DNA of 64,000 bases from Branchiostoma floridae (lineage: Eukaryota > Chordata > Leptocardii > Amphioxiformes > Branchiostomatidae). The stretch is taken from positions 25,438,217 to 25,502,216 of the forward strand of contig NC_049986.1 of NCBI RefSeq assembly GCF_000003815.2. Direction: 5' to 3'. The notes below the pieces were generated by a model that was not told the origin of the DNA, ran no database searches, and saw only the letters and a list, made by a program, of their open reading frames with translations. Positions 23,581 to 52,455 of the stretch are shown piece after piece (within the stretch, counting starts at the first letter, position 1; every line of letters starts with the position of its first letter). The position numbers and the translations under genes were made by a program.

Positions 23581-24531
23581 GAACTGCAGAAGCCGTGACA
23601 AAACCATGGACCTGTCCACTGCGACCTGCTGCTGTTATAACTGTAATCTAGTGAGTTATCTAGTGAGTTAATGAGTTATTAATTGAGTTAGTAAGTTAGC
23701 TAACCTTGCCTGTGTTTTGCAGAAGCCGTGACATGACCATGGACCTGTCCACTGGGACCTGCTGCTGTTATAACTGTTATCTAGTGAGTTGTGTTAGTGT
23801 GTTAGTGAGTTAGCGAGTTAGCTAACCCTTCCTGTGTTTTGCAGAAGGCTTGACATAACCATGGACTTGTCCACTGTGGCCTGCTGCTGTTATAACGGTT
23901 ATCTAGTTTTGTTAGTAAGTTAGTGAGTTAGCTAACCCTGCCTGTGTTTCAGACATGACCATGGACCTGTCCACTGGGACCTGCTGCTGTTATAACTGTT
24001 ATCTAGTGAGTTGTCTTAGTGTGTTAGTGAGTTAGCGTGCTAAGTAACCCTGCCTGCCTGTGTTTCAGACTGCAGACAGGATGGACCTGTCCACTGCAAC
24101 CTGCTGCTGTTATAACTGTTATCTAGTGAGTTGTGTTAGTGAGTTAACGAGATAGCGAGTTAGCTAACCCTGCCTGCCTGTGTTTCAGACTGCAGACAGA
24201 ATGGACCTGTCCACTGCAACCTGCTGCTGTTATAACTGTTATCTAGTTAGTAAGTTAGTGAGTTAGCTAACCTTGCCTGCCTGTGTTTCAGACTGCAGAC
24301 AGGATGGACCTGTCCACTGTGGCCTGCTGCTGTTATAACTGTTATCTAGTGAGTTGTGTTAGTAAGTTAGTGAGTTAGTGAGTTAGCTAACGCTGCCTGC
24401 CTGTGTTTCAGACTGCAGACAGGATGGACCTGTCCACTGCGACCTGCTGCTGTTATAACTGTTATCTAGTGAGTTGTGTTAGTAAGTTAGTGAGTTAGCT
24501 ACTCCTGCCTGTGTTTCAGACTGCAGACAGG
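23581..24531 (+). repeat. Exon-border minisatellite: eight extra copies of the start of the fibrinogen-domain gene
   Basis: A unit of roughly 100-130 bp contains a splice acceptor (cctgtgtttcag), then ctgcagacaggATGGACCTG and a few further codons, then an intron-like spacer (gagttagtgagttagcta). ATGs at the equivalent position occur at 23606 and seven times more before the true start at 24532. The copies agree with the real exon through STVAC or STATC, then switch to tgctgttataactgttat. Confidence 0.9.
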
Positions 24532-27500
24532 ATGGACCTGTCCACTGTGGCCTGCGCTCTGCTGCTGATAATCATCCTACCGAGCGAAGCGACGCTCCAA
24601 CGCGGCGGTGTGCGCCGGTACATGTCCACACGGCCGCTCGACAACCAGCAGTGCGCCTACACGTTTGTGGTGCCCCAAGCCGAGGGGGGGTGTCCGTACC
24701 AGCAGGACCCCCCCTCACAAGACTTCACTAACGACATTCAGCAGCTGAGAGAACAGGTTTGTTGTTTGTTTGTTTGTTTGTGTACACATTTGTGGTGCCC
24801 TAGGCCAAGGTTGGGGGAATGTTTGTTTGCTTGTTAAGCATAACAGGTGCACCAGCTTCAGGCACTTTGTGCTAACGGTAAGTTCAAGCTGCATTGTAAG
24901 GTTCACACCGAAAGGTTCTTTTGAGTTGTGGCTTCCATCAAAAACAGGACCTCCATTCAATGTCCTACTATAAACAGGGCATCCCTAATGAAACCTAGGC
25001 GCTGATTTTCTCCAAATGACTAAAGAAGGGCACAACGAGGCAACCTAAGAATTTGTACCTTTAGATTCAAAACAGCTAACCACAGACTCGCCTTGTCCCC
25101 TGTGCAGGTTTCGCAGCAGGGGAAGATCATCAACGGCATGGCGTCCTCGATCCGTGCCAGTAAGGGCGTGGCCAGTGCGGTCCAGGCATTGGAGAACGGA
25201 AAGCGGGTGGTGGAGGACCGGCTGACGTACCTGCAGATGCAGATGCTGAAGGATGAGGCCAACAGGAACGCTCACCGCGCAGAGATGGCCACACTGGAGA
25301 AAACCATCATGAACCAAACTCTGCAGTATGTGCAGCTGTACCACATGTACCAGGAGCTCATGGCAGCCTACAACAAGGTAACATAACCAGCTAACCAGCT
25401 AACTAACTAGCTAACCAACCAGCTAACTAACCAGCTAACTAAGCCTAACCAAACTCTGCAGTATGTGCAGCTGTACCACATGTACCAGGAGCTCATGGCA
25501 GCCTACAACAAGGTAACATAACCAGCTAACTAGCTAGCTAACTAGCTAACCAACCAGATAACCAACCCTAACCAGACCCTGCAGTATGTGCAGCTGTACC
25601 ACATGTACCAGGAGCTCATGGTTGTACTAGATAGTTACTATTTAGTAGATATACAGTAGATTTTTCAGTAGGTGTTCAGTACTACACAGTACATTTTCAG
25701 TTATTTACTGAAGGATTGCCAAGTGTGAGACTTTCCTTCCCCCCCTGCAGGTAAACACTGCCATGGAGAACCAGACAGCGACGATCGAGGCGCTCATGAA
25801 GACGGTTGTTATACGGTTGTAAGATGGTTGTAAGATGGTTGTAAGACGGTTGTAAGATGGTTGTAAGACGGTTGTGAGACTGTTCCTTCCCCCCTGCAGG
25901 TAAACACTGCCATGGAGAACCAAACAGCGACGATCGAGGCGCTCATGAAGACAGTTGGGGGACTGGCGCGCGACCGGGAGGACCTGACACGGCAGGTGGC
26001 GCGCCTGAAAAAGACCGGCCGTCACGGTTCGGACAGACACGGCGGGTCGCGGAGCACGCAGACACGGCAGGCGCAGGTCGCCTCCGAGGCCGTGGTCAGG
26101 ATCGGAGACATCGAGGACATCGATGATGGCGTGGGGTCAAGGGTCAGCCAAGTGACACAGCCACAGCCTCAGCCGAGACCGCAGCCGAAGCCTCAGCCGA
26201 AGCTGCCAAAAGGTGAGCAGAGACTTGTCTAGGTGGGAAGGGGGGTCTGCCCTACTTATGGGGAGGGGGGCAGGTTGGAACTCTGTCCTAACAGGGCAGA
26301 TCTTGACTGACCTTGAGACTTGTCTAGGTGGGGAGGGGGGCAGGAACCCTGTCCTAACAGGGCCGACCTTGCCTGACCTTAGGACTTGTCTAGGTGGGGA
26401 GGGGGGCAGGAATTCTGTCCTAACAGTAACAGGGCTAACCTTGTCTGACCTTGGGACTTGTCTAGGTGGGGAGGTGGGCAGGATGGAACTCCTAACAGGG
26501 CTGACCTTGCCTGACCTTGGGACTTGTCTAGGTGGGGAGGTGGGCAGGATGGAACTCCTAACAGGGCTGACCTTGCCTGACCTTGGGACTTGTCTAGGTG
26601 GGGAGGGGGGCAGAAACCCTGTCCTAACAGGGCTGACCTTGCCTGACCTTGGGACTTGTCTAGGTGGGGGGTCTGCGGTACTTACCAGGAGGGGGTATTT
26701 AGTATAACCAGCACAGCTGCTGTTGGTGTAATGATGAGGAAAGCTGTGGTTACTGGCCACTGGACTGTAATTATAAGGTACAATGTACAATTAGGACAAA
26801 CACCAGACCACACAAACCTCAAAAAAACACAAAAAGTAAAAAGCAACTGATTGAAAAGAGCCCTCACTCAGATGTACAATGCTGTACTAAAGATGGCCAA
26901 TTCGAATCCAGGGGTTCCTAGCCTGGTACCACATGCCCAGTCATGATCACATGACAAGGATCCAGAATCTTCTTGAAGGTTGGTTCTGGTTACAGTTACA
27001 CTGTGCACAGGGTTGGTTCTGGTTACACTTACACTGTGCACAGGGTTGGTTCTGGTTACAGTTACACTGTGCACAGGGTTGGTTCTGGTTACAGTTACAC
27101 TGTGCACAGGGTTGGTTCTGGTTACAGTTACACTGTGCACAGGGTTGGTTCTGGTTACACTTACACTGTGCACAGGGTTGGTTCTGGTTACAGACTTACA
27201 CTGAGCACAGGGTTGGTTCTGGTTACAGTTACACTGTGCACAGGGTTGGTTCTGGTTACAGTTACACTGTGCACAGGGTTGGTTCTGGTTACACTTACAC
27301 TGTGCACAGGGTTGGTTCTGGTTACAGACTTACACTGAGCACAGGGTTGGTTCTGGTTACAGTTACACTGTGCACAGGGTTGGTTCTGGTTACACTTACA
27401 CTGTGCACAGGGTTGGTTCTGGTTACACTTACACTGTGCACAGGGTTGGTTCTGGTTACACTTACACTGTGCACAGGGTTGGTTCTGGTTACACTTACAC

Positions 27501-30027
27501 TGTGCACAGGGTTGGTTCTGGTTACAGTTACACTGTGCACAGGGTTGGTTCTGGTTACAGTTACACTGTGCACAGGGTTGGTTCTGGTTACAGTTACACT
27601 GTGCACAGGGTTGGTTCTGGTTACACTTACACTGTGCACAGGGTTGGTTCTGGTTACACTTACACTGTGCACAGGGTTGGTTCTGGTTGTTACACTGTGC
27701 ACAGGGTTGGTTCTGGTTACAGTTACACTGTGCACAGGGTTGGTTCTGGTTACAGTTACACTGTGCACAGGGTTGGTTCTGGTTACAGTTACACTGTGCA
27801 CAGGGTTGGTTCTGGTTACACTTACACTGTGCACAGGGTTGGTTCTGGTTACACTTACACTGTGCTAGCTCGAAAGGCTAGCCAATAACAACTGGCAGAA
27901 ACAGGCCTGTGACCAGCAGACTGGAAAACACCCCTAAATCCAACCAGTGGAGACTGGTAACAAAGCCAGGAGGAGTTATAGTGGGGGACTTTAAGTGTAT
28001 ACAGAGGCAAGGCTTTTCCTGCAGTGCATACTGGAATGCATGACTATGATGTGCAGGCAAAGTGAATGAACCATAAACAGCAGTTTTATACCTGCATGAA
28101 GTGTTCTGTAATGTTGCATGTTGTGTTTGTGTTTGGTAAAAATGCACGGGTGAATTTTCCTTGTTTTCTATGTAATGGTTGCTATGGTAACTTTTCTGTT
28201 TTCGATGTATTTACCTTTTCCTTTCTCTTGCCAAGTCTAGGAAACTACACTTGGAATGATACACTCCGTAAGCACTTTTACTTTCATTTCTTCCTCATCT
28301 CAAGTTAAACTGTTGTTTTGCTTCCTTTCTATTCCTTAACTTCCCCACCATCAATTCTTTCCCCCGTTTTTCTCAGTAAGTCTTTTATAAATTTGTCCTT
28401 CTTGTTCTTAAGTGTTGAATATGCATGACTTCACAGGGATAGTAAAACCCAGTAAAGTGTAAAGTCATACTCGGCCCAGGTGAAACCCAGTGTAAAATCA
28501 TGCCCGACCCATGTAAAACCCAGTGTAAAATCATGCTCGACCCATGTAAAACCCAGTGTAAAATCATGCCAAACCCACGTAAAACCCAGTGTAAAATCAT
28601 GCCCGACCCATGTAAAACCCACGTCCCCCAAACAGTCCAGGTAAGAACAGACCCATGGGAAGGAAGCAGAATGAATACTACAAGCTTCAATAACCTAAAG
28701 TTTGTAGTTGTTACATATTTGTTTACACTGTTTATTACCAGTAACAATTATGTTAAGATTTTTAAAGGCATTACATGACTTGCCATACTATCAAAGGAAG
28801 ATAACAGTAACTCATCAGTAAGTAATCTGTAAATCATAAGTAACTCATTAGTAAATCATCAGTAACTAAGCAACTCATCTGTAACTCATTAGTAAATCAT
28901 CAGTAAGTAACTAATATGTAACTCATCAGTAAACCATCAGTAACTAATTCCCCAGGTAACATCAAGAACCTCCCAAGTAGCAATAATTCATAGTTACATG
29001 TATCTGTATCTGTATAATATATTGTGTAATGATATACATTGTAGGTACATATAGTGTCTAATCCTGACCCGTACCATTTCACTGCCTCAGCCAACAACAG
29101 TATCTTCCCAGGTCCCACAGCTAACAGCATGTGCCAGACTACATGTATGTACTATGGTCTATTGATAACACAGGGTAGATCTTAGGTACTGTATCTGAGG
29201 CATTTAGTGTTGTTTGGCATTAATCATGATGATTGTTTACCTGGATATCTAACCTTCAGCATGTACTACCATCCCCCTGGTCCTTGTGTACAATCATGTG
29301 CTCCACGTACACATGTAGTGTCTGCAGATTATAATGCTCTGTTTTGTCCCCCCCAGCCAAACCGCGGCACTGTGCGGATATCCAACGTGCAGGGAAGGCT
29401 ACCAGCGGTGTGTATCGGATCTACCTGCCCGATCACCATGACAACCCCGTTCCCGTGTACTGCGATATGGACACCGACCCCGGCGGTTGGACCGTCATCC
29501 AGAAGCGCGCCAACGGGACCGTGAACTTCTTCCGCAACTGGGCTGCGTACAAGTCCGGGTTTGGGGACCCGCGGGGGGACTTCTGGCTGGGTCTGGACAA
29601 CATGCACCTGCTGACGGGGAGGGGGGGCTACAAGCTGCAGATCAGCCTGGAGGACTGGAACGGCATCAAGGCCTACGCGGAGTACAACAGCTTCAAGGTC
29701 GACAGCGAGGACAACAAGTACCGCCTGCGCCTGGGGAAGTACCATGGCAACAGTGGCGACGCCCTCACCTGGCACAACAACATGGCCTTCACCACCAAGG
29801 ACAGCGACAACGACCCATTCATCGGGAACTGCGCCGGGTACCAGCGCGGCGGATGGTGGTACAACGCCTGCGCTCACTCCAACCTGAACGGCATCTACTA
29901 CCCGGGGGGGTACTACAGCAGCCGGTACCAGGACGCTGTGTACTGGGCAGAGTGGCGTGGCGGCAGCTACTCACTCAAAACTGTCATGATGAAGGTCCGG
30001 CCAACGGGCAACCAGGCGCTAACATAG
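24532..30027 (+). CDS. Secreted angiopoietin-like fibrinogen-domain protein (FREP), spliced gene
   Basis: Model: exons 24532-24756, 25108-25377, 25900-26212 and 29357-30027, all with GT/AG borders and matching phases (0, 0, 1), giving 492 residues. The protein has a signal peptide (MDLSTVACALLLIIILPSEA), a long coiled coil across exons 1-3 (LREQVSQQGK to RQVARLKK), a Pro/Gln/Lys linker (PQPQPRPQPKPQPK), and a complete C-terminal fibrinogen domain from CADIQRAG to the stop. That domain has four Cys (two disulfides expected), the calcium-site loop DSDNDPF and the NCA...GGWWYNAC core. Signal, coiled coil and fibrinogen domain make up the angiopoietin/ANGPTL layout; such proteins are secreted oligomers acting in signalling or as lectins. 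The start follows a good acceptor 15 bases upstream, so a 5' noncoding exon probably exists. A 27-base extra exon (28241-28267) may belong to it. Confidence 0.88.
24757..25107 (+). other. Intron 1 of the fibrinogen-domain gene
   Basis: Begins gtttgttgtttg and ends ccctgtgcag. It contains a degenerate echo of exon 1 (acatttgtggtgccctaggcc at 24785 against acgtttgtggtgccccaagcc in the exon). Confidence 0.7.
25378..25640 (+). repeat. Exon-border repeat: exon 2 3' edge duplicated twice in intron 2
   Basis: The last 51 bases of exon 2 (17 codons, YVQLYHMYQELMAAYNK) with their donor recur at 25462-25512. That copy is preceded by ctctgcag and followed by gtaaca, and its length keeps phase 0. A second copy near 25580-25620 is cut short (gagctcatggttgtactag). 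Units are separated by 'accagctaactaactagc' repeats. Confidence 0.88.
25741..25899 (+). repeat. Exon-border repeat: exon 3 5' edge duplicated
   Basis: The acceptor cccccctgcag and the first 18 codons of exon 3 appear at 25751 and again at the true exon (25900), separated by a short array of 'ggttgtaagatggttgtaag' in between. The first copy reads into a stop (TAA at about 25820), so only the second can serve. Confidence 0.85.
26220..26690 (+). repeat. 65-70-bp minisatellite starting at the exon 3 donor, about 7 copies
   Basis: The unit contains gacttgtctaggtggggagg and ctaacagggctgacc. The array starts within 10 bases of the exon 3 donor (gtgagc at 26213). Confidence 0.88.
26975..27865 (+). 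repeat. 33-bp minisatellite, about 27 copies, in intron 3
   Basis: The unit is gttggttctggttacactta plus cactgtgcacagg, with c/g variants at one site (acacttac or acagttac). The 3n period leaves several frames open. Confidence 0.96.
28241..28267 (+). CDS. Candidate 27-base microexon of the fibrinogen-domain gene
   Basis: A pyrimidine-rich tract ending ccaagtctag is followed by 27 bases and then the donor gtaagc. Length 27 and entry phase 1 keep the frame between exon 3 and the fibrinogen exon, inserting GNYTWNDTLP-type residues with an N-glycosylation site (NYT). No independent support, so this may be chance. Confidence 0.3.
28440..28635 (+). repeat. 33-bp minisatellite, about 6 copies, in intron 3
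   Basis: The unit contains cagtgtaaaatcatgcccga and cccatgtaaaacc. Confidence 0.9.
28790..28950 (+). repeat. Short degenerate repeat (aactcatcagtaa)n in intron 3
   Basis: Eight or more copies of 12-20-bp units built on 'aactcatcagtaaatcat'. Confidence 0.8.
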
Positions 30028-31060
30028 CACAACTACAGGACAACAGTAGCACAACTATAGTACAGTAACAGCACACAGCTACTCACTCAAAACTGTCATG
30101 ATGAAGGTCAGGCCTACTAAGGTAACCAGGTTCTAACATAGCACAACTATAGGACAATAATAGCACGGCTACAGGACAGTAACAGCATAACTACAGCATC
30201 ATAACAGGACAGTAACAACACACAGCTACTCATTCAAAACTGTTATGATGAAGGTCCGGCCAACCGGAAACCAGGCTTTAACATAGCACAACTATAGGAC
30301 AACAATAGCACAACTTTAGGACAGTAACAGCACACAGCTACTCACTCAAAACTGTCATGATGAAGGTCCGGCCAACCGGAAACAAGGCATTAACATAGCA
30401 CAGCTAAAGGACAACAGTAGCACAACTTTAGGACAGTAACAGAATAACTACAGCATCATAACAGGACAGTAACAACACAGCTACTCACTCAAAACTGTCA
30501 TGATGAAGGTCCGGCCGACGGGTAACCAGGCTTTAACATAGCACAACTACAGGACAACAACTATAGCATGACAACAGGACAGTAACAGCACACAGCTACT
30601 CACTCAAAACTGTCATGATGAAGGTCCGGCCGACCGGAAACCAGGCTCTAACATAGCACAACTATAGGACAGTAATAGCACAACTGTAGCATTGTAACAG
30701 CATCAAAACAGGACAGTAACCACACAGCTACTCACTCAAAACTGTCATGATGAAGGTCCGGCCGACCGGAAACCAGGCTCTAACATAGCACAACTATAGG
30801 ACAGTAATAGCACAACTGTAGCATTGTAACAGCATCAAAACAGGACAGTAACCACACAGCTACTCACTCAAAACTGTCATGATGAAGGTCAGGCCGACGG
30901 GTCACCAGGCTCTAACATAGCACAACTATAGGACAACAGTAGCACAACTTTAGGACAGTAACAGCATCATAACAGGACAGTAACAAGACACAGCTACTCA
31001 CTCAAAACTGTCATGATGAAGGTCCGGCCTACTGGTAACCAGGTTCTAACATAGCTATAG
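30028..31060 (+). repeat. Exon-border repeat: eight extra copies of the last codons and stop of the fibrinogen exon
   Basis: Units of roughly 110-145 bp each begin cacagctactcactcaaaac and encode YSLKTVMMKVRPTGNQALT followed by TAG, then a noncoding spacer (cacaactataggacagtaac). Seven of the eight keep the frame to the same stop; the first copy (about 30080) has a 2-base insertion. Most base differences are at third codon positions. Confidence 0.92.
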
Positions 31061-31610
31061 GAAAGTTACAGGACCGAAAACAGGCTCTAACATGATAGCA
31101 TAACTATAGGACAATAATGTCACAACTACAAGACAATAACAGAATAACTAAAGGTCAATAATAGCACAACTACAGGACAGAAACGAGGCTCTAAGATAGC
31201 ACAACTATACAGGACAATAATAGCACAACTATAGGACAATAATAGCACAACTATAGGACAATAATAGCACAACTACAGGACAGAAACAAGGCTCTAAGAT
31301 AGCACAACAATACAGGACAATAATAGCACAACTATAGGACAATAATAGCACAACTACAGGACAGAAACAAGGCTCTAAGATAGCACAACAATACAGGACA
31401 ATAATAGCACAACTATAGGACAATAATAGCACAACTACAGGACAGAAACGAGGCTCTAAGATAGCACAACAATACAGAACAATATAAGCACAACAACAGC
31501 ACAAAAAATGGCTTTAACATAGCACAACTACAAAACAGTAACAGCACAACTACAGAGCAATAACAGGACAACAACAGCACAATAACAGGACAATGACAGC
31601 ACACAAAAGC
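31061..31610 (+). repeat. Spacer-derived array downstream of the fibrinogen gene
   Basis: The noncoding spacer of the preceding array expanded on its own: 'ggacaataatagcacaacta' and 'cagaaac(a/g)aggctctaaga' repeat in a compound unit of about 90 bp, three to four copies. Confidence 0.88.
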
Positions 31611-32060
31611 ACTAACTTACTAGTACTCTACATATTACTATAAGCAACCAGCAAAATAACAGACAGTACAGCAGGCAAACAATATAACTCAGCATACTAT
31701 GGAAGGAAGGAGAGTTACATCACTTCAGGACATGATAGTAAACCTATGGACTGTACAAGCAGACATGAGGGGGGAGGGGGGCATGTTCTCCAGAGGAAGG
31801 GAAAGTTACTATCAGCTGTGGTGTTGGATTCCATCATTGTGTAGTGATCCACTTATATACAAAGATACCTAGATATGTAGGCTTGTGATCTGTTGGTACC
31901 TAGTAGATATGTACTAGATTTTTGATCTGTAGATAGGTAGATATACCGCTTATATATATATATATCTGTCAAAGGCTACCTGGGAAAGTTTTGTGGACTA
32001 ATAACATGTACAACATGTATGTAACAATGTTGCAAAATTTGATGTGAAGGGAACCTTCAG
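31611..32060. other. Unique AT-rich stretch
   Basis: No gene seen; a short (TA)n lies at 31950-31965. Confidence 0.4.
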
Positions 32061-32470: not shown

Positions 32471-34800
32471 GATATGTTGGTTTCCATGGTTATAAGTTGT
32501 CATTATGATTATAATCTAATAGTACTGCTGGTTGCCATGGTAACCTTCCTTCTTATGAAAGTGGAAGAAACTTGCCATACTTTGTTATTTTGTAAATATT
32601 TTGTTGTTAATTAAATATATTAATGTCAGAGGACCTGAAGATTTGATGTGCTTGATTATGTTATCATTTCATTCAGCCATTAAAATCAACTTATATAGAA
32701 GCCTGCTGAGCTGCATAGTTACATAAATGTAAGTGTTACCAGCTATGAAAACTGGCTCATGTCGGGAAATTCAACCTGTATCTCATGTAGAAATGTTAGT
32801 CTTGGTGACACGGTGGTGTCTGTAACCAGCCTGGTAGACATGTAAGTCAGTTAGTACGTGTGGTGTCTGTAAGCGAGGGGCTGCCAGCCTGGTAGACATG
32901 TATGCAAGCGAGTTAGTACGTGTGGTGTCTGTAACCAGCCTGATATAGACATGTATGCAAGCCAGTTAGTACGTGTGGTGTCTCTGAGAAAATCTGCCGA
33001 CTTTGTGATGTATATTGGTGCTTAAGTCTCTTCCATGGACCTGATGCAGTAACCATGGTAACAGCATAGCAAATGTCTCTTCTCAAACGTACTGGAATAA
33101 AGAGCTGAGTGTTGCACAGCCAGACTGCGTCTGTGGTTCGTACAACTTTGGCACTAAATAGGAAACCATGATTATTTCCATGAAGTGCACACACCTTTAC
33201 TACACTCTCTCAGCCCCTTCTGTACTACTGACTAAAACAGCATCAGTCTGAGTTTCTGCATTATCTAATTCCACCGGTCCTGAGGACTGGACTGGGCCAG
33301 CTTCTTACATGGAGCGAGGGATGTGTGCTGTTTCTCCTGCCAGTTTTGTCTTCCAAACCAGAGGCTTTTTCACAGGTGAGCTCACAAGAGACAGAAGAGA
33401 TCATGAGATGTCTGTTCTCACAGGAAGCGGCTTGCCTGCTTACAAAACAACAAACACCACAAACCTGGGGATAAACAAAACAACAAACACCACAAACCTG
33501 GGGACAGATGCACCAAATGTCTACACCACCATTACTAACCACTGGGCTTCAGATGTCAACTCCACTGTCAACACTAACACCGTACTAACGACACACCAAA
33601 CACGGCCGCGCTGACAACTCAGACTGTACACCGTACTAACGACACACCAAACATGGCGGTGCTGACAACTCAGACTGTCTGCAGTTTAATCAGCTCTGTC
33701 GGGGGGAAACCAACTGTCGTTACCGTAATGGCGCAACACGAGAAGAGCAGCAGGAAATGTGGTTTGTTTTCTTCATGTCGACACAACATCACGTCCACAA
33801 ACACACGGCGAACATGGCAGCCTGACAGGAAAACGGGCCTGTCACAGCCTGAATAAAACAAAACCTGATGCATACACTTCCATAACCAAAGCTGGCTACA
33901 TCACTCTTACACTGTCAAGCACAAAAACTGCATAATTCAAGATCCAAAAGTCTCTAGAGTTGTAAGGCTTCTTGAGACCTTCCTATACTGTTTTGCATGG
34001 GATCAACTTGTAAAAGTTTTGCCCTTTACATTGTGCAAAAATTCGAATAAAACGATGAAACAAGACTCCTCCTGTCCCACAGACACACATAAGGTTCTGC
34101 CCGTCACAGTGTGAACAATTCTAATAAAACGATAAAACAACCCCCCTCCCCCTCAGGCACACACAAAGCTATCCTAGTCTTAATGGTTTGTTTGACCTTG
34201 ACGACTCCCAAGGTTTTGTCCACACCATAAAATGGCGTCCCTGACAAGGACGTGTGAAGGTCAACCCTACAGCTGCAGGATGTGTAAATGACCTTCCTGT
34301 CTGGCTGATGGCAGAGAGGATCAGCATGAGGGTACAGGAACAAGCTGGGGGGAGAAGTAGGGCAGGGGGGTTGCTGTCCTTGGGGATGGGGGTCGGTGAT
34401 TGGGAGGGGGGGGGGACTTACATGTGCACTAGATGACAACAACAAGCCAGAATACACCTGCATTCTGGGATTGTTAGTAGAGTATGGAATTGTACATAGC
34501 CACAACGACCTCTGTACAGTTTGGGACCTGAGCCTGCTTTACAGTACGTAACAGTCTAAATTCAAACTATACCAATCTTACCGGCTTAGATTGTTCTCAA
34601 TAAAAGTTGACTACCTACCAAGCCATGGTTTATTACATAAAATGTATTCAACATGTTCAATGGCTTCTGGTATATCAATAACACCTGTGCCAAGACACTG
34701 GATATGTAACCAACAAATGGGAAACATGGGAGTTGGTTTGTAATATTGTTTGTACTGATACCAGATAAGGGATACGCAAGGTTGTTTTTTTTCGCAGCCT
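32471..34800. other. Gene-free stretch with small duplications
   Basis: 'gttagtacgtgtggtgtctg' units recur four times at 32805-32985; 'caccacaaacctgggga' repeats near 33450-33505; 'actaacgacacaccaaaca' repeats near 33585 and 33635; 'cgaataaaacgat' and 'ctaataaaacgat' lie near 34045 and 34113. Perfect X-box palindromes occur at 32531-32544 and 33049-33062. I looked here on the minus strand for further RALGPS exons and recognised none. Confidence 0.5.
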
Positions 34801-34891
34801 GATGTTTGTTTGTTTGTTTGTTTGTTTGTTTGTACGTAGGGGATGGAGGGCAGCTTGATGTTTGTTTGTTTGTTTGTTTGTTTGTTTGTTT
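34801..34891. repeat. (GTTT)n microsatellite
   Basis: Two runs of tttg/gttt tetramers separated by 'gtacgtaggggatgga' run up to the donor of RALGPS exon 7. Confidence 0.9.
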
Positions 34892-34897
34892 ACTTAC

Positions 34898-36767
34898 CCA
34901 GGTAAGGGATGCAGGGCAGCCGAATGTCCTCCATGTAATCTCTCAGCCTCTGTCTGTTCTCATCTTCTGTGAGCACCTCGGCTAACCGCTCGAACACAGC
35001 CTTGTCTCTCCTGGACAGGAGCTGGAACACAGGGGGGGTCATCAGCACAGGGGGGGCATCAGCACAGGGGGGTCATCAGCACAGGGGGTACTATACAGGG
35101 GGGTTAAAACCTCGGCTAACCGCTCAAACACAGCCTCGTCTCTCCTGGACAGGAGCTGTAACACAGGGGGGGCATCAGCACAGGGGGGCATCAGCACAGG
35201 GGGGCATCAGCACAGGGGGTATCAGCACGTGGTACTGTGCAGGGGGGTATAACCTCGGCTAACCGCTCAAACACAGCCTTGTCTCTCCAGGACAACACAA
35301 AACATCTCTACAGTTCTGCCTAACCAGCATCCCTACATTCTGCCTAACTCTGTGATCTGCAGCGCCCCCTAGCAGCCTGTGCACTTATTGCCCAAGTCTT
35401 GGTGGTTTGGAAGATGGGAGCACTGAGGGGCATGCTGTACAGGGGTACTGTAGGGGGTACTGTAGGGGGGTATTGTAGGGGGTACTGTAGGGGGGTATTG
35501 TAGGGGTACTGTAGGGGGGTACTATAGTATAGGGGGTACTGTGGGTATACTACAAGGGGGTATTGTAGTGGGGTACTGTAGTGGGGTACTGTAGGGGTAC
35601 TATAGGGGGTACTGTACTTACTGCCCAGGTCTTGGTGAGTCGGAAGATGGGAGCGCTCCGAAGGCCGGACACCACCGACATCGTGGAGTGGATGTTGTTC
35701 AACTCAAACAGTTTCTGGGAAGAACACAGAAGTGGGCTTAGATAACATCTGAACCAAGAACTTCTCTCATGTTAGGAATATGAGATATATTATGTGATTT
35801 TGATTTTTACTGAATAAAATGTATAGATACCAACATGAAAACATTGTTCTCGTGAGAACAGTTTTACCTTGGCTATCTTTATAAAGTGGTGAGAGTTGTG
35901 AGAACAGTTTTACCTTGGCTATCTTTATAAAGTGGTGAGAGTTGTGAGTACAGATTTACCTTGGCTATCTTGATAAAGTGGCTGAGTGTGGTAAGTACAG
36001 TTTTACCTTGGCTATCTTGATAAAGTGGTGAGAGTTGTGAGTACAGATTTACCTTGGCTATCTTTATAAAGTGGCTGAGAGTCTCTCCGCGGATCTTCAG
36101 GGTCTGCGCTGTCAGGATTTCCCGCACCACCCAAAAACTCACCTGTGCAGAGAAGGTCAGGCAAGGTCAGGTCAGGTCAGGCAAGGTCAGGTCAGCCAAG
36201 GTCAGGTCAAGCAAGGTCAGGTCAGGTCAGGTCAGGCAAGGTCAGGTCAGGCAAGGTCAGGTCAAGCAAGNNNNNNNNNNNNNNNNNNNNNNNNNNNNNN
36301 NNNNNNNNNNNNNNNNNNNNNNNNNNNNNNNNNNNNNNNNNNNNNNNNNNNNNNNNNNNNNNNNNNNNNNNNNNNNNNNNNNNNNNNNNNNNNNNNNNNN
36401 NNNNNNNNNNNNNNNNNNNNNNNNNNNNNNNNNNNNNNNNNNNNNNNNNNGTCAGGTTAGGCAAGGTCAGGTCAGGCAAAGCAAGTTTAGGTCAGGCAAG
36501 GTCAGGTAAGACAAGGTCAAACCAAGCAAGATCAGGTCAAGCAAGGTCAGGTCAGGCAAGGTCAGTTGTAAAATAGGTCAATCAAGTTGCAAGAGGTTTT
36601 CTGGTTAGTTCACGTACATTTCATGGATGACTCATTGTACTCATTAATAACAGGAACAAACTACTCAAATGGAACCGATCAGTGCCCTTGTCCAAAATCA
36701 TAAAATAAGTACCTGCCAAAAATGAGGAAATACCCTGAAGTTTAAACAACTTTACACTCTATTAAAA

Positions 36768-36863
<96 letters not shown>

Positions 36864-37801
36864 TTTAATATCATGCTCATGTTTATGACATTGGAAAGTG
36901 ACACTTACATGGTTAAATCTCCTGGTCATATTTACAACATTGGGGCAGTGCCGAACTTTCTCCTTAGTATTCCACGCACAGCTAAGTAGTTCCTGAAACA
37001 ACAAACAGCAAATAGTAAACAACAAGAAAAATGTGGTCTCAACCTGACTCAGTTGAAAAAGTTGAGGAAATCTCAGAGGAGGCCGACTAGAGAGATTGAG
37101 TAGCTCACCTCGGGACTTATGGCTTTGAAGACTGGCAAATCCAGCAGCGAGATCTGGGACTGAAAAATGGAAAACAGCAATAACATAATCATGGTGACAA
37201 CTGACGATGGTAACCATGGTGACGACAATGGTAACCATGGTGATGTTGGACTGACAATGGTAACCATGGTGATGGTAAACAAGGAAAATTCCAGCACCTC
37301 CTATTCACTAACACACCCCCACTGACAAACACCCCCCTAAAATCAGCCCCCCCCCTAAAATAAGCCCGCCGTACTCACAGCGAACTCCTCAGGCGAGACT
37401 TTGAGCGCGTCGAACACGACGGCATCGTAGCTCTTCAGTCTCGGGAGGGTCCAGCGCGTCCCGGAGTCTCGCTGACTCAGCGAGTCTGCACTGTGGCTGC
37501 TCTGTAAACACAAACAATAAACACAAACATTCTACACTGTGTTTTTTCTGTAAATAAGAAAAATAAGCAATAAACAAAACTGGCAGTTTTGTACACACAA
37601 ACAATAAACATTCCAAGGAACCTGAAGTTTTTTAATGGTATTGAAGATGCTTACATGTACGTCTGACACCTTGAGGTAACGTTCGGGCGATGACCTCCCA
37701 TGGTCGGGGTCGTCGCTATGGTAACCATTGGCGAGCCTGTCCGGCGGCGAGTCAGGCGAGTCATCGTAGTGGAGCGGCAGGTGCGGCAGCTGGCAGTCCA
37801 T
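34898..37801 (-). CDS. RALGPS: RALGPS-type Ral guanine-nucleotide exchange factor, N-terminal seven exons
   Basis: Exons on the minus strand: 37655-37801 (ATG), 37379-37501, 37109-37159, 36909-36992, 36053-36142, 35622-35714 and 34898-35021. All have GT/AG borders and the phase stays 0 until exon 7, which ends in phase 1. The chain reads [96 protein letters not shown] and LPCIPYLG, in the order of a CDC25-type RasGEF domain and closest, from memory of the family, to RALGPS1/2. Those proteins load Ral GTPases with GTP at membranes. The rest of the GEF domain (after IPYLG), the PxxP motif and the PH domain are not found to the left, so the model is partial. Exon 7 is preceded, and exon 5 followed, by arrays of their own border copies. 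Confidence 0.88.
35022..35300 (-). repeat. Exon-border repeat: exon 7 5' edge of RALGPS duplicated twice
   Basis: The start of exon 7 (plus strand cggctaaccgctc(g/a)aacaca through tctcctggacaggagctg) recurs at about 35108-35165 and 35250-35295. The copies are separated by G-rich 'cagcacaggggggcatcag' spacers. The first copy retains the acceptor; the second lacks it. Confidence 0.85.
35440..35615. repeat. G-rich (gtactgtaggggg)n array
   Basis: About a dozen 12-15-bp units next to the exon 6 donor. Confidence 0.88.
35855..36075 (-). repeat. Exon-border repeat: exon 5 3' edge of RALGPS, about four extra copies
   Basis: On the plus strand 'accttggctatctttataaa' (donor plus the last codons FIKIAK) recurs near 35867, 35911, 35957 and 36005 before the real one at 36051. 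Units are about 45-50 bp, separated by gtggtgagagttgtgag. Confidence 0.9.
36155..36575. repeat. (GTCAG / GCAAG)n pentamer array with assembly gap
   Basis: Pentamers gtcag and gcaag run through intron 4 on both sides of the N run. Confidence 0.93.
36271..36450. other. Assembly gap (180 N)
   Basis: Unsequenced, inside the pentamer array; true length uncertain. Confidence 0.99.
36772..36861. repeat. (AT)n microsatellite
   Basis: About 90 bp of near-pure AT dinucleotides in a RALGPS intron. Confidence 0.97.
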
Positions 37802-38060
37802 GGTGCTTCCTGGGAACTCACTAACTAACTAACAAACATCCATCTCTGACGTCCCTCTGGCCCTGAAACACACAAGCATCATCATCATCACTGGTACTGA
37901 GGGAACTTACTAACTAACTAACAAACATCTCTGTCGTCCCTCTGGCCCTGAAACACACAAGAATCATCATCATCACTGGTACTGAGGGAACTAACTAACT
38001 AACTAACTAACATACCTGGCCCTCTAGCACACGAGAAGATCATCATCATCACCACTCAGT
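37802..38060 (-). repeat. Exon-border-like repeat upstream of the RALGPS start codon, three copies
   Basis: Units of about 85-110 bp containing 'gggaactcactaactaacta' and 'ccctctggccctgaaacaca' followed by (atc)n. On the minus strand the copy next to the ATG ends gttcccag|gaagcaccATG, an acceptor context, so the first coding exon probably follows an intron. The repeats carry versions of that acceptor. Confidence 0.7.
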
Positions 38061-39790: not shown

Positions 39791-39839
39791 CCTCAGCACA
39801 GGCCGAGCCTGACGCGACGTCCTGTCATTGTTCCCGCCG

Positions 39840-41335: not shown

Positions 41336-41339
41336 AGAT

Positions 41340-44035: not shown

Positions 44036-44039
44036 GTGC

Positions 44040-44560: not shown

Positions 44561-44675
44561 GTATAAAATCACGCTCCCTGTTTGCTCACTAAATCCATCA
44601 TCCCAATGCAATATTCCAAATATGTCGTTGTGAGTAGATTAGCGCTGGCCCAATATTTAGTCAGGCGTTGTTGTA

Positions 44676-45060: not shown

Positions 45061-45514
45061 ATCTGAATGATTGCGCAGCTGTGAGCATCCAGCATGTAAG
45101 GTGTGAAACTGCCGCTTGAGCCCCACTATTGCCTCCACCTTCCGGAGCACACTGTAAGTCTGGAAACTTTTGCTGTGGTTTTATGGTCACGGTGACCTCT
45201 CCACTGCAGTGATGTCACCGCGAGTATAAACCTTTGTGTGGCTGCTGCAGTTCTGCCTGCAGGAACCTACAGGACCCGACAGTGGTCATTAAGGCAGTCA
45301 TCCATCACTTTCTGCCTGCTGCTGTTGGGTTCCTGAATCACAGCCCAGCTGTCAATCACAGCTGTCAATCACAGCCCAGCTGTCAATCATAGCCCAGCTG
45401 TCAATCACAGCACAGCTGTCACTCAGGGCAGGAAGTAGGTCTGAGAGCTAATCCAGATTTAAGGGGGGGGGGGGTCAGATGCAGTCTACCTGCTCAGCAC
45501 CACAGAGGGCGTCT
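45061..45514. other. Unique stretch with short repeats
   Basis: 'cagcccagctgtcaatca' recurs four times at 45345-45425. No gene is recognised. Confidence 0.5.
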
Positions 45515-45635
45515 CTCCAAGCAGAGGTTTGTTGTGATGCTGTTATAAGCTTCTGTTCAACATCCAGCCTTTTATGACAGTCTGCCAGTACCAGGCCAGC
45601 TGTGAGAAAACAGGACAACCCACCTCTGCTTGGAG
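45515..45635. mobile_element. Small MITE, CTCCAAGCAGAGG family, copy A
   Basis: Ends CTCCAAGCAGAGGTT and ACCTCTGCTTGGAG are perfect inverted repeats over 13-14 bp. 121 bp, non-coding. Same ends as 47627-47750. Confidence 0.75.
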
Positions 45636-45706
45636 TTCTATCTTAACTGAACTTGATTAATGTTGGGCACATAGCTATGTCCATCCCTTCAAATCTAGAC
45701 TATAGT

Positions 45707-45926
45707 GAGGGTCTGCAATTGTCTGCACCTCTGGGGGCACCTCTGATAAAGCTGAATTCAGACGAATCCCCTAAAAAAATGACACACTCAAAATATAAGG
45801 GATGGCTGCTGAATTACATGGTGGCCTTGCTACGAATTACGGAAATGAAATGGCTTTGCCAAAAATAACAGGAAATCAACTTGGCTGCCTATTGCCTCTC
45901 AGAAATTAAGGGATATTCAGGCCCTC
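45707..45926. mobile_element. MITE, GAGGGTCTGCA family, copy A
   Basis: Left end GAGGGTCTGCAATT, right end ATTCAGGCCCTC; inside are 'aagggatggctg' and 'ctacgaattacggaaatgaa', shared with the copy at 57656-57960. 220 bp, non-coding; target duplication not clear. Confidence 0.65.
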
Positions 45927-46429
45927 CATATGATATACATGTGAGTAACTGACACTAACACAGCCACATAGCCAGGCTTCAGCCTTGTGCCACTATGTAG
46001 CTGTATTTGACACCAAACTCTCCCGTAACACCAGGGATAGGATATCAGGGTAATATCATAGCTCTACGGTCCAAAAGTAGGCTGACAGCTCATTTGCCAT
46101 GTATAACTGACACTCAGTCATACAGTCAGGACTGCAAACAGGATTCATTTATAGTTTATACATGTTATACATTTACGTGGCTGCCTGTGACACAGAAGAT
46201 TTTTTATTATTATTAGAGGCTTTGGAATCAAGAACATGTTATGGCAGTGTTGTGCCCCCTCCATGGTGCAGAGGAATGGTATGGCCCATAGTGATGACAC
46301 CATACCCCAGGGGGTCGTGCCATTCTCCCAGGGGGGTGTCCTGCCCTATAAGGGGAAGTGATATCAGCAGGCCAGCAGGCGGTGACAGATGGGTTAGGCT
46401 CCTGCTGGGCAGCCGGAAACTTAAACATT
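45927..46429. other. Unique stretch
   Basis: No gene recognised. Confidence 0.4.
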
Positions 46430-47460
46430 TATCACACATTTCTCACTTATGTCTCACACATATCTTACAGATCATACTGACTATAAGAAAACAGGAAACA
46501 TTTCTCACACATTTCTCACTTATGTCTCACACATTTCTCACTTATGTCTCACACATTTCTCACTTATGTGTCACACATTTCTCACACATCAAACTGGCCT
46601 ATAATAAAACAGGAAACATCACACATTTTTCACTTATGTCACAGTCACATCAAACAGGAAACATTTCTCACACATTTATCACACACGTCTCGCACATGTC
46701 TCACACACGTCTCGCACATGTCTCGTACAATTCTCACACATTTATCACTTATGTCTCACACATTTATCACTTATGTCTCACACATTTATCACTTATGTCT
46801 CACACATTTATCACACATCATACTGACTATTATAAAACAGGAAACATTTTTCACACATTTCTCACACGTCTCACACATGTCTCGTACAATTCTCACACAT
46901 TTATCACTTGTGTCTCACACATTTATCACTTATGTCTCACACATATCTCACACATCATACTGACTATTATAAAACAGGAAACATTTTTCACACATTTCTC
47001 ACACACGTCTCACACATTTCTCATACAATTTATACTGACTATAAGAAAACAGGAAACATGTATCTCACATTTCTTACTTATGTGTCACACATATCTTACA
47101 GATCAAACTGACTATAATAAAACAGGTAACATGTCCCTCACATTTCTCACACACGTCTCACACATATCTCACACATCAAACTGACTATAAGAAAACAGGA
47201 AACATGTCTCACACATTTCTTGCAATGTATTTCTCACACCTTTTGTACACACCATACTGGTCTATATGATAAATTTTTACACATTAAACATGGTCTATAA
47301 ATAAGTATAATAAAACATGAGAAATCATTTCATACACATCAAACCGGTCTGTAATAAAACATGAGGAAACATAATTCCTACACACCAAACTCAGCAGGTC
47401 TAGAATAAAACGGGAAACATCTCTCACACATCAAGCTGGTCTGTAATAAAACATCGATTT
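46430..47460. repeat. Compound array of 'tctcacacatttctcactta' and 'actataataaaacaggaaac' units
   Basis: Two unit types alternate: 21-22-bp cacacattt(c/a)tcacttatgt runs, and spacer blocks with catcatactgactat(t/a)ataa plus aacaggaaacat. Confidence 0.9.
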
Positions 47461-47626
47461 TTGTATGTGTTTCTTTTCTTTCTTTTTTTTTAGATTTGAG
47501 TGTGCACAACCACTTGTGTTATTGTAGAGCTGTGACCCCACAGATACATGATTACAGTAGCACACTCAGGGAATACTTCAGCTGGTTTATTACGGAGCTT
47601 TGACTCTACTCATACATTACAGTACT

Positions 47627-47750
47627 CTCCAAGCAGAGGTTAGGCTGTTTTTGATGATTGTTTAGTCGTTTTTATCAGGCTTTCTATTTTGTATTGTATC
47701 TAGTATTGTCAAAAGCTAACAGGCCCGGAGCCTTAAACCTCTGCTTGGAG
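47627..47750. mobile_element. Small MITE, CTCCAAGCAGAGG family, copy B
   Basis: Same inverted ends as copy A, flanked by ACT on both sides (47624-47626, 47751-47753), a possible 3-bp target duplication. The interior differs from copy A, so only the ends are conserved. Confidence 0.75.
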
Positions 47751-47779
47751 ACTAACATTACAGCAGCACACAGGGAATA

Positions 47780-48150
47780 CTTCAGCTGGTTTATTATGGA
47801 ACGGTGACCCTACAGATTACTGTACCATAGCACACAGGGAATATCATGGAACGGTGACCCTACAGATTCTATAGCACACAGGGAATATCATGGAAAGGTG
47901 ACCCTACAGATTACTGTAGCACATAGGGAATATCATGGAACGGTGACCCTACAGATACTGTAGCACACAGGGAATATCATGGAACGGTGACCCTACAGAT
48001 TCTATAGCACACAGGGAATATCATGGAACGGTGACCCTACAGATTCTATAGCACATAGGGAATATCATGGAACGGTGACCATACAGATACTGTAGCACAT
48101 AGGAAAATGATTATGGAGCGCTCTACAGGTACATTAAAGTAGCGCACAGG
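47780..48150. repeat. 44-bp minisatellite, about 7 copies
   Basis: The unit contains gcacacagggaatatcatgg and aacggtgaccctacagat. The copies just outside it (47520-47600) are older. Confidence 0.92.
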
Positions 48151-49117
48151 GAATACTCAATCCTTGATCTAAGCCACAGGTGGAGCACTTCACGCTACAT
48201 TCACTGCAACTCTTCCTTCTCACAACAACGCTCGCTCGCAAATCAAGTGGAATCTGGCTCATTATGGGTGCTGACTGACGTCAGTGCTAATTGCTGATTC
48301 CATAACGAGGGTCCAATTTTGGTTCATCAAGCCAGAGAGTGAGTGAGGGCGGCGCAGATTGCAGTCTTCTAACCTGTAATTTTAGTTTTGCTGCAACTTG
48401 CCGAAGACAGGTGGTTACTTTGCTCTGTCCACAACCTGCTGAATTCCATGGGTGAAAATGCTGCCTGTGGCAACCTTCTCAACTAACTTTTTGGCACATC
48501 CAACCCCCCCTCCCATTAGTTTCGCTGCAACTTGCCGAAGATAGGTCACCATGCTTTTTTTGCTCTGTCTTCAACCTGCTGGATTCCATGGGTGAAAAGG
48601 CTGCCTGTGGCAACCTTCTCAACTATATACTTAACTTTTTGGCACCCCCAACCCCACATTAGTATAAACTCCATGGATGACTCCACAGTCAAAATCTCTA
48701 CAGTGTGTGAGATTAGATGCCAGGGTGGGATCAGCGGATATCGGAGTGTGCTGGGTGGGCAGACCTACAAGACCAGTTGCTGACTGCTCAGTATAAATGA
48801 TGATGTCTGTAGCTTTACATCCCTTCTGTTTGAGAATAACCGGGCGTGTCAACCATGGGCCTGCCGCCGCAGCCTTACCCCAGTGACAAGAAGGTTCCAG
48901 AAAGTCCATTCTTCCCTGTTATTGAAGACTATTAAAACATGCTCTAGATGGGTTAGAGTTGGAGTTAAATTGTCATTATTGTCCATTCTTCCCTGTTACA
49001 CTGACTATTAGCTATATTATAAAGCTACATGCTGCAGTTGGGGTAGAGTTGGAGTTAAATACTATCTCTGTTATTCTGTTCCAGACATAGCTACATGCTG
49101 TACACCCCCCTGCTATA
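48151..49117. other. Duplicated segment and BTB gene 5' flank
   Basis: A segment of roughly 110 bp beginning gctgcaacttgccgaagaca recurs at 48388 and 48522. Around 48915-49080 'ggttagagttggagttaaa' also recurs. An acceptor (ttctgttccag, 49074-49084) lies just before the BTB start codon, so an upstream noncoding exon is likely. Confidence 0.55.
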
Positions 49118-51954
49118 ATGGCGTGTTCGGCCTCGCCTGGCGGAGTGGCCGAGATGAGCGAGGCGTTTCGCGAGCGTTCCCGTAAAGAACGAGAGAAGCT
49201 GCGGACCAGCCTGGCGGAGCAGCTGGCCTGGGACATGATGAGGTCAGAACCTGCAAACTTTGTTATAGGGTAAACATGTAAACATCAACATGTAAACATC
49301 AACATGTAAACATCAACATGTAAACATCAACATGTAAACATCAACATGTAAACATAAACATGGAAACATAAACATTGAAACATAAACATGTAAACATCAA
49401 CATGTAAACATCAACATGTAAACATAAACATGGAAACATAAACGTGGAAACATCAACATGTAAACATAAACATTGAAACATAAACATGTAAACATCAACA
49501 TGTAAACATCAACATGTAAACATCAACATGTAAACATAAACATGGAAACATAAACATGGAAACAAAAACATGGAAACACAAACATGCAAACACAAACATG
49601 TCAACACAAACATGTCAACATAAACATGTAAACACAAACATGTAAACATAAACATGTAAACACAAACACGGAAACATGTAAACATAAACTTGGAAACATA
49701 AACATGGAAATACAAACATGGAAACACAACATGAAAACACAAACATGGAAACACAAACATGGAAACACAAATGTAAACATAAACATGTAAACACATAATG
49801 TAAACATAAACATGGAAACACAAACATGGAAACATAAGCATGGAAACACAAACATGGAAACACAAACATGGAAACACAAAAATGGGAACACAATAACATG
49901 CAAACACAATCATTTTTTTGTAAACACAAACATGGAAACAAAATATGTACCCGGGTCACCCCTTGAATTGTAATGTTGTTGATCCCCCGAAGTGTAATGT
50001 TTTTGTTATCTCCCCCCCCCCCTGAAGTGTAATGTTGTCCCCCCTAAAGTGTAATGTTGTCCCCCCTGAAGTGTAATATTGCCCACCCTGAAGTGTAATG
50101 TTTAATGTTGTTCCCCCTGCAGACTTTACGAGGAGGCGCAGACAGTGGATACCCAGTTCCTGGTGTCGGGTGTCCAGTTTCCCGCGCACCGCGCCGTCCT
50201 GCGCGCCCGGCTGCCCCAGCTCAGTGACAAGTTCCTGCCGTGCCACGCCCCCGGCACCGTTGCCATGGTTCCCGTCTTCAAACATGTCAAACACGACGAG
50301 TTCAAGGATCTGCTGCTGTAAGTACTTTCTATTATGATCTGGGTGGGGTGGGGTGGGGTGTCGGGAGAAGCTGCAGTAGTGGATAGACCTGTAGCCTCTA
50401 ACCTTTGCCCTTTGTCCCACAGCTCGGTGTACACCGGGGAGGATCTGAGTTTGTGTCGGGAGAAGCTGCAGAAGTGGATAGACCTGTAACCTCTGACCTT
50501 TGCCCTTTGTCCCACAGCTCGGTGTACGCCGGGGAGGATCTGAGTTTGTGTCGGGAGAAGCTGCAGTAGTGGATAGACCTGTAACCTCTAACCTTTGCCC
50601 TTTGTCCCACAGCTCGTTGTACACCGCGGAGGATCTGAGTTCGTGTCGGGAGAAGCTGCAGAAGTGGATAGACTTGTAACCTCTGACCTTTGCTCTTTGT
50701 CCCACAGCTCGGTGTACACCGGGGAGGATCTGAGTTCGTGTCGGGAGAAGCTGCAGAAGTGGATAGACTTGTAACCTCTGACCTTTGCTCTTTGTCCCAC
50801 AGCTCGGTGTACACTGGGGAGGATCTCGGCGCGTGTCGGGAGAAGCTGCAGAAGTGGATAGACTTATAACCTCTGACCTTTGTCCCACAGCTCGGTGTAC
50901 ACCGGGGAGGATCGAGTTTGTGTCGGGAGAAGCTGCAGAAGTGGATAGACTTGTAACCTCTGACCTTTGTCCCACAGCTCAGTGTACACCGGGGAGGATC
51001 TGAGTTTGTGTCGGGAGAAGATGCAGAAGTGGATAGACTTGTAACCTCTGACCTTTGCCCTTTGTCCCACAGCTCGGTGTACACCGGGGAGGATCTGAGT
51101 TTGTGTTGGGAGAAGCTGCAGAAGTTGATAGACTTGTAACCTCTGACCTTTGCCCTTTGTCCCACAGCTCGGTGTACACCGGGGAGGATCTGAGTTTGTG
51201 TCGGGAGAAGCTGCAGAAGTGGATAGACTTGTAACCTCTGACCTTTGCCCTTTGTCCCACAGCTCGGTGTACGCCGGGGAGGATCTGAGTTTGTGTCGGG
51301 AGAAGCTGCAGTAGTGGATAGACCTGTAACCTCTAACCTTTGCCCTTTGTCCCACAGCTCGTTGTACACCGCGGAGGATCTGAGTTCGTGTCGGGAGAAG
51401 CTGCAGAAGTGGATAGACTTGTAACCTCTGACCTTTGCTCTTTGTCCCACAGCTCGGTGTACACCGGGGAGGATCTGAGCCCATGTCGGGAGAAGCTGCA
51501 GAAGTGGATAGACCTGTACGGCAGTGGCGACACCCTCCGAGAGGCGAGTCTGAGCGTTATATCCGAGATAGACGAGGAGATCGGCGTGGAGTCCGTTGCA
51601 GACATTCCTGACGAGAACGCTAACCCCGCCGACGCCCGGCAACCAGCTGACGCCCGGCAACTGGACGGTAGTGACTCCGGCATCTCTCCGGAGGGGAGTG
51701 CTGCAGTGCATGCTGGGACTGTGCAGGGGAAGGATTCTGGGATTGTTCCTCCCGTCAACGGTAACCTTGCCGACCACAGCGAGAGCCAATCAGATCTGGA
51801 CGATGATGATGACTCCTCCTCCACAGCTACTTACTCCAGCGAGGACTCTTCTGAGTCTGGGAGCTACAATGTGGAGGATGGGGGCCACTCGGACCTTTCG
51901 CTGGACAGTCTGGGGGGCAAGAAGCACGATGTGGCGGGGAGCACTATCCTGGAG
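49118..51954 (+). CDS. BTB/POZ-domain protein, BTBD8-like, N-terminal three exons
   Basis: Exons 49118-49242 (ATG), 50123-50317 and 51453-51954, joined in phases 2, 2 and 0. Exon 1 gives a charged helix (EAFRERSRKEREKLRTSLAE). Exon 2 carries the BTB fold core: DTQFLVSGVQFPAHRAVLRA, RLPQLSDKFL, then HDEFKDLLL continuing as SVYTGEDLSP in exon 3. Exon 3 then runs into a low-complexity acidic and Ser-rich linker (DDDDDSSSTATYSSEDSSES). BTB domains dimerise and scaffold, often bridging to ubiquitin ligases. The order helix, BTB, long linker resembles BTBD8, but I rate that only moderately likely. The donor at 51955 (gtacgt) shows that the gene continues, past a gap. Intron 2 is filled with copies of the exon 3 start. 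Confidence 0.8.
49255..49945 (+). repeat. (acatgtaaacatca)n array in intron 1 of the BTB gene
   Basis: Units of about 12-14 bp, 50 or so copies, with a drift from catcaacatgtaaa to cacaaacatggaaa along the array. Confidence 0.93.
49960..50112 (+). repeat. (cctgaagtgtaatgttgtcc)n array before BTB exon 2
   Basis: Six to seven units of about 20-35 bp ending just before the polypyrimidine tract of the exon 2 acceptor. Confidence 0.88.
50318..51452 (+). repeat. Exon-border minisatellite: eleven decoy copies of the BTB exon 3 acceptor
   Basis: A 95-bp unit: cctttgccctttgtcccacag, then ctcggtgtacaccggggagg and on to 'gtggatagacctg', then TAA. Acceptors occur at about 50422, 50517, 50612, 50708, 50803, 50891, 50979, 51073, 51168, 51263 and 51358; the twelfth (51452) is the real one. 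In every decoy the codon after IDL is a stop, whereas the real exon reads on as IDLYGSGD. Confidence 0.95.
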
Positions 51955-52455
51955 GTACGTACATAAACAAACAAACAAACACCAGGTACACGCACATGTA
52001 CGGGGGCCACTCGGACCCTGCACTGGACAGTCTGGGGGGCAAGAAGCACGATGTGGCCGGGAGCACTATTCTGGAGGTACGGACATAAACAAACAAACAA
52101 ACAAACACCAGGTACACACACATGTACGGGGGCCACTCGGACCCTTCGCTAGACAGTCTGGGGGGCAAGAAGCACGATGTGGCGGGGAGCACTATCCTGG
52201 AGGTAGGTACCTAAACAAACAAACAAACAAACACTAGGTACACACACAGGTACGGGGGCCACTCGGACCTTTCGCTAGACAGCTTGGGGGGCAAGAAGCA
52301 TGATGTGGCCGGGAGCACTATCCTGGAGGTACGTACATAAACAAACAACAAACAAACACCAAGTACCCGCACCATGTTCGGGGGTCACTCGGACCCTTCA
52401 CTGGACTGTCTGTGGGTAAGAAAGCACTATGTTGCCGGGAGCACCATCCTGGAGG
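51955..52455 (+). repeat. Exon-border minisatellite: four copies of the BTB exon 3 donor edge
   Basis: Units of about 115-120 bp with gggggccactcggacc, gggggcaagaagcacgatgt, agcactatcctggag and the donor gtacgtacataa plus (caaa)n. The last copy runs into the gap. Confidence 0.93.

Follow-up and report, generated by a model that had tools for sequence, protein, structure and literature searches.

Mirage-like minisatellites at exon borders of three adjacent genes of the amphioxus Branchiostoma floridae

Minisatellites built from exon-intron boundaries, named 'mirages', have been reported in the Adh3, globin, TnC and PGBD5 genes of amphioxus together with a model of intron gain, according to two papers (PMC3087553, PMC3902484). 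The original prediction for the present locus mentioned such arrays at an amphioxus Adh locus, and the phenomenon is indeed published. The Adh3 mirage has units of 10-72 bp (Canestro et al. 2002, NAR 30:2871, as given in citing passages), and the mirages of the globin genes BflGb6 and BflGb9 have units of 150-160 bp, those of BflGb6 being 81-100% alike (PMC3087553). The same sources describe the published mirages as variable in length and splicing as undisturbed (PMC3087553, PMC3902484), the latter being reported from transcripts for mirages other than those treated here. Published mirages resemble the present arrays in being tandem copies of exon-intron boundaries, with 5' and 3' boundaries alike, and in that many, although not all, of their copies retain AG or GT, as do 65 of 68 decoys in our material. 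The present arrays differ in occupying many borders in three adjacent genes, in including an exon with the start codon, and in including a stop-codon edge without a splice site.

A second related system is intron gain by tandem genomic duplication, the Rogers model cited in PMC3087553, which has been described for the potato RdRp gene (PMC4974935). Both Rogers-type gain and the present arrays involve a local tandem duplication in which exon sequence is copied together with splice signals. In the Rogers model the duplication reportedly creates a new intron, whereas the surplus copies found here have been absorbed by existing introns or a 3' flank. Growth, nested units and similar copies are common ground with ordinary minisatellites, unlike which the present units hold coding sequence plus a splice site or stop codon. 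No genome-wide count of mirages is announced in the titles or abstract openings of the open-licence PMC papers found by search, although one may exist elsewhere. The present analysis adds further members and a variant at a stop codon, and it estimates at the unit level how prevalent mirages are and by how much they exceed expectation.

The window, as the whole stretch of 64,000 nt analysed here is called, belongs to a contig of 25.58 Mb, whose end is 74-138 kb away. Tandem Repeats Finder (TRF) reports 148 rows of tandem arrays in it, and arrays with units of at least 20 bp take up 29.6% of its length. This minisatellite density is exceptional, reaching 46-60% per 4-kb bin between 16 and 32 kb. 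A subtelomeric origin of the density was not supported by contig-end samples: the 20 samples of 2 kb taken 100 kb from contig ends have mean array coverages of 0.085 and 0.068 and a median of 0 in both cases, and nine C8 stretches gave 0.345, 0, 0.058, all N, 0, 0, 0, 0.055 and 0, the last two of which, some 15 and 28 kb beyond the window, show a fall of coverage to 5.5% and 0%. Contig ends in general showed no clear array enrichment in this small sample.

Three genes were modelled by hand with 13 exons, namely a fibrinogen-domain gene, RALGPS and a BTB gene, and their products carry the Pfam domains Fibrinogen_C, RasGEF and BTB, respectively; among PDB entries, RalGPS1 matches the RasGEF protein best. 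When joined, the 13 exons keep the frame and contain no internal stop, and AG or GT is present at 25 of 25 splice borders, the 26th edge being the stop of the fibrinogen gene. The RALGPS model (34898-37809) ends at position 152 of the 181 positions of RasGEF, and a human C-terminal sequence used as a probe revealed no convincing further exon within the window. Elsewhere in the window, an intronless open frame of 941 residues (53332-56154) encodes a tyrosine kinase domain together with weaker cadherin, EGF and Ig matches below the cut-off, and is free of TRF arrays. Another open frame (14552-15802) is reverse-transcriptase-like with a GIY-YIG-like end, and we take it to resemble a Penelope-type element.

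Border duplications were identified by a uniform self-comparison, in which a hit is a copy 20-1000 bp off that spans 10 bp on each side of a border. A tandem duplication including the splice site was found at 8 of the 25 mapped borders of the three genes, evenly split into four donors and four acceptors, with 1 to 10 additional copies per matched border (10 within 1 kb at the start of BTB exon 3). Divergence from the true border is 3-27% for most copies. The original prediction had named eight places, seven of which are exon-intron borders, and all seven were recovered by the self-comparison; the eighth, given as the terminal exon of the fibrinogen gene, is a real array but spans the stop codon and the adjoining 3' flank and holds no splice site. 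Absent from that list were the RALGPS exon 7 donor, which is duplicated, and the RALGPS exon 6 donor, which has a worn copy and no match in the strict self-comparison. The arrays are as follows.

23581..24561, + strand: fibrinogen gene, exon 1 start, about nine units in steps of 103-141 bp
25312..25621, + strand: fibrinogen gene, exon 2 end, 2.4 copies of a 135-bp unit
25725..25955, + strand: fibrinogen gene, exon 3 start, two copies 149 bp apart
29964..31055, + strand: fibrinogen gene, stop codon, nine copies in steps of 112-147 bp
34760..34932, - strand: RALGPS exon 7 end and donor, one clear extra copy and one worn (by eye)
34975..35221, - strand: RALGPS exon 7 start and acceptor, 134-bp unit with a nested 16-bp repeat
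35381..35645, - strand: RALGPS exon 6 end, single worn copy in the downstream intron, at 233 bp
35852..36082, - strand: RALGPS exon 5 end and donor, 46-bp unit, five copies by TRF
50358..51518, + strand: BTB exon 3 start, about 12 copies of a 95-bp unit
51880..52455, + strand: BTB exon 3 end, 4.6 copies of a 122-126-bp unit

For the fibrinogen-domain gene, the exon 1 unit comprises the end of an intron, the acceptor AG, the start codon ATG and the first codons, and the true start (24520) lies in the final copy of the array, with eight further copies. The exon 2 unit consists of 66 coding bases of the exon end, the donor and the intron start; the true donor follows 25377, there is one further copy, and a 12-bp repeat is nested in the intron part. 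At exon 3 the unit holds the acceptor and about 57 exon bases, with the true start at 25900 and the decoy start at 25751, and an 11-bp array has grown out of the exon tail of the decoy. At 25799-25884 and 31095-31612, exon and stop-codon fragments in decoy position appear to have been expanded into 11-bp and 22-bp arrays. The stop-codon unit joins about 60 last coding bases, TAG and the 3' flank, so that its true copy marks a coding/3' flank edge at which no splice site is present.

In RALGPS, the true exon 7 start is at 35021 with one further acceptor copy, AAAC microsatellites lie between the exon 7 donor copies, the true end of exon 5 is at 36053 with three further copies in the self-comparison, and the GT of the exon 6 donor is missing from its worn copy. 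An 85-bp array with TTTCAG directly upstream of the first RALGPS coding exon (37820-38013) is possibly the mirage of an untranslated exon and was left uncounted. In the BTB gene, the unit at the start of exon 3 (true start 51453) includes the intron end, the acceptor and roughly the first 66 exon bases, and the unit at its end includes the last 75 exon bases, the donor and the intron start, with three further copies; this donor array abuts a 100-N assembly gap. The exon 3 anchor, from the only gene array tried, maps to one place in the assembly, where no second haplotype of this exon was found.

These arrays are best explained as mirage minisatellites, that is, as local tandem duplications that crossed an edge, were tolerated as their extra copies stay non-coding, and then expanded; we assign this reading a probability of about 0.7. 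The breakpoints of a short tandem duplication would have fallen on either side of the edge, one within the exon and one within the adjoining intron or 3' flank. It would be tolerated, as the copy beside the exon body retains the coding sequence and the surplus copies would be non-coding, being presumably spliced out or placed behind the stop codon; at splice borders such tolerance should require that the site beside the exon body is used. Duplications inside coding sequence would mostly be purged by selection, leaving those at coding/non-coding edges to survive, and their placement may have been random or mildly biased towards exons. The array would subsequently grow and turn over as a minisatellite. 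Nested sub-arrays within units are visible in the sequence. Exons join in frame without any decoy, so that the decoys are unnecessary for coding, and the stop-codon array, which has the same build and no splice site, is predicted by a model in which any coding/non-coding edge will serve.

The raw coverage by local duplicates in the window amounts to 49.5% of non-exon positions versus 32% (8/25) of borders. As each array would derive from one ancestral unit, which has to include the true border for that border to count as covered, a unit-level expectation is fairer, for which each position was weighted by 1/copy number and corrected to unduplicated length. This expectation is 3.72 of 25 borders, or 2.59 with the border arrays left out of the control, so that the eight observed represent 2.2-3.1 times chance (Poisson P 0.036 or 0.005) in a region picked for its striking look.

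Because the window was chosen as striking, a second set was taken that was chosen by gene family, namely 20 myosin loci. These were picked by hand from the 142 myosin rows that a Pfam scan of this genome gave, at a time when no repeat analysis of the loci had been run. The borders were placed at computed rather than annotated splice sites, and many exons remained unmapped and were counted as intron. C18:12465721, C15:7022571 and C5:18183801 were left out for internal stops, with other stop-bearing rows kept, and locus L021 has no borders because stop-bearing rows were excluded. The 165 exons yielded 253 borders once splice scores of -1 or lower had been removed; subtracting two borders of L022, a paralogue of L015 that was dropped, and two of an L027 decoy taken as an exon leaves 249 borders supplied by 18 loci. 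Before cleaning, 14 matches were counted at the 253 borders versus 3.1 expected. Cleaning was a visual check that removed the paralogous locus, two doubtful matches (L018 and L028, where the border is wrong or doubtful) and repeat counts of a homologous mirage (L013 and L027, counted once), leaving 8 independent mirages at 249 borders versus 3.07 or 2.50 expected at the unit level (Poisson P 0.014 and 0.0043, respectively). Half of these eight come from L015, without which the excess is not significant. Without both L015 and L022, the 8 matches versus 2.34 expected shrink to 4 once L018 and L028 are dropped and the L013/L027 pair is counted once, and 4 versus 2.3 is not significant. A bootstrap over loci places the sample ratio at 1.7-7.6, without L022 and with the doubtful matches still in. 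In a separate table of 144 borders, which includes L022 as well as L029, a locus fetched for its visible decoys and not part of the 253/249-border sample, raw coverage is 7.6% (11/144) of borders versus 5.5% of introns, and the matches comprise six donors and five acceptors.

The original prediction held that chance would not place arrays on exon edges, and named overlap no higher than expected from array coverage as its refutation. Compared in this way, window and sample give no clear border excess; at the unit level, a mild 2-3-fold excess in both data sets, with statistics that are modest and clustered, gives non-chance placement partial support. Mirages also occur elsewhere in this genome, in myosin and kinesin genes, and to that extent the prediction is supported. 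In L015, a 50-bp unit containing the start of a myosin exon, which presumably encodes the P-loop, occurs about 20 times in 1 kb; in L026, four decoy donors lie downstream of a donor whose score they match; and on C2, two decoys precede the start of a kinesin exon. L013 and L027, about 28 kb apart, have a worn and a fresh version of one mirage in common, which points to inheritance via gene duplication or to conversion. A reading of L027 as tandem whole exons was rejected in favour of a three-copy mirage. Three family searches were also scanned for adjacent matches to one profile stretch, which detects long exon parts only, the L015 and L027 decoys having escaped; the kinesin case was the sole clear mirage. 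The same scan yielded two dynein heavy chain matches to one profile segment, 600 bp apart (C13:6317960-6318689), which are possibly a duplicated exon.

Plain tolerance predicts no excess, yet 8 borders were found versus 2.6-3.7 expected in the window and 8 versus 2.5-3.1 in the sample, and this counts against the best explanation as it stands. Two alternatives concern the cause of the excess and are compatible with the mirage reading. According to the first, which appears somewhat unlikely, edges have no special association with arrays: dense arrays overlap borders, and the excess stems from the choice of a striking window and from clustering in a few genes. The array coverage of the window is indeed far above the 3.4% or less of 17 of the 20 myosin loci (5.7, 11.6 and 35.4% in the others), the raw coverage of its borders is not above that of introns, and L015 alone supplies four of the eight independent matches in the sample. 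The unit-level P values of both data sets and the bootstrap ratio argue against this view.

The second alternative, which we consider unlikely, is that a process linked to exon edges, such as breakage coupled to transcription or splicing, or a feature of exon chromatin, raises the duplication rate there. It would account for the unit-level excess in window and independent sample alike. Copies of at least 90% identity also exceed expectation, with 4 versus 0.79 in the window and 6/144 versus 1.09 in the sample (weighted by present length; the paralogue L022 and the hand-picked L029 account for two of the six). On this ground, slower decay of copies derived from exons was rejected as the sole cause of the excess. 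GC content offers no explanation in the sample, where array rates are flat (0.013-0.017 over GC classes); in the window they climb from 0.061 below 30% GC to 0.124 above 60%. Weighted array rates in the window are 0.11-0.15 within 300 bp of a border and 0.07 beyond 1200 bp, whereas in the sample rates near borders (0.015-0.021 within 150 bp) resemble those far off (0.018) and raw coverage stays at 0.04-0.06 whatever the distance. The clustering of the excess in L015 and L022 likewise speaks against such a process, and a splice-specific step is opposed by the symmetry of donors and acceptors and by the stop-codon array.

The proposal that splice-site motifs seed the arrays is, for its part, not supported. 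Good splice-like GT and AG in sample introns have array rates of 0.020 and 0.026 versus 0.015 (78 and 62 positions), and a looser cut-off gives 0.012 and 0.017 (267 and 462 positions), without clear enrichment in either case; donors and acceptors are at parity, and the stop-codon array has no splice site. The nine good GT motifs in the window have a rate of 0.199 versus 0.088, although they may include decoys themselves. The window trends in GC, distance below 300 bp and GT motifs could be an edge effect or a trace of the decoys. By eye, TTTG/AAAC microsatellites occur at or near several mirage donors (L015 1674, L022 3001, window 34898 and 51954) and possibly represent one breakpoint of the unit.

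It is highly improbable that the decoys are maintained by selection, for instance for the regulation of splicing. Among the 70 decoys listed, two lie at discarded borders; the other 68, which include those of L022, L029 and the RALGPS exon 6 copy, come from the window and the fetched loci, and the intact AG or GT in 65 of them would fit such a role, with scores mostly like the true site and very low in two. However, copies in the largest arrays are 90-97% alike and may be too young for decay, offsets modulo 3 of all 70 (19, 20 and 31 for 0, 1 and 2) show no frame preference and hence no sign of decoys kept for in-frame use, and a typical BTB exon 3 decoy, read from its acceptor by eye, runs into TAA. 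An assembly artefact is scarcely credible either, even though gaps (36271-36450, 52456-52555 and 62021-62597) adjoin or break some arrays, as most copies are nested and diverged from the true border to the extent given above, arrays recur in unrelated loci (some L026 copies being identical), the BTB exon 3 anchor has a single place, and the PGBD5 repeats were confirmed by re-examined reads according to PMC3902484.

Returning to mirages as tolerated and expanding edge duplications, they have so far been reported for a handful of genes in the papers found, and the 8 of 249 family-chosen borders suggest that mirages are frequent here and mildly over-represented at the edges of exons. The genome is thus a natural system in which to study how the splicing machinery passes over near-perfect decoy sites, and in which to test the proposal that tandem duplication at exon edges gives rise to new introns. 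It is doubtful that coding edges, meaning both kinds of splice border and the stop codon, are preferred genome-wide for new tandem duplication at 2-3 times the intron rate. If they were, about 3% of exon borders (8/249 sampled) would carry mirages, amounting to thousands per genome, and these would form a standing stock of decoy splice sites as raw material for new introns and exons.
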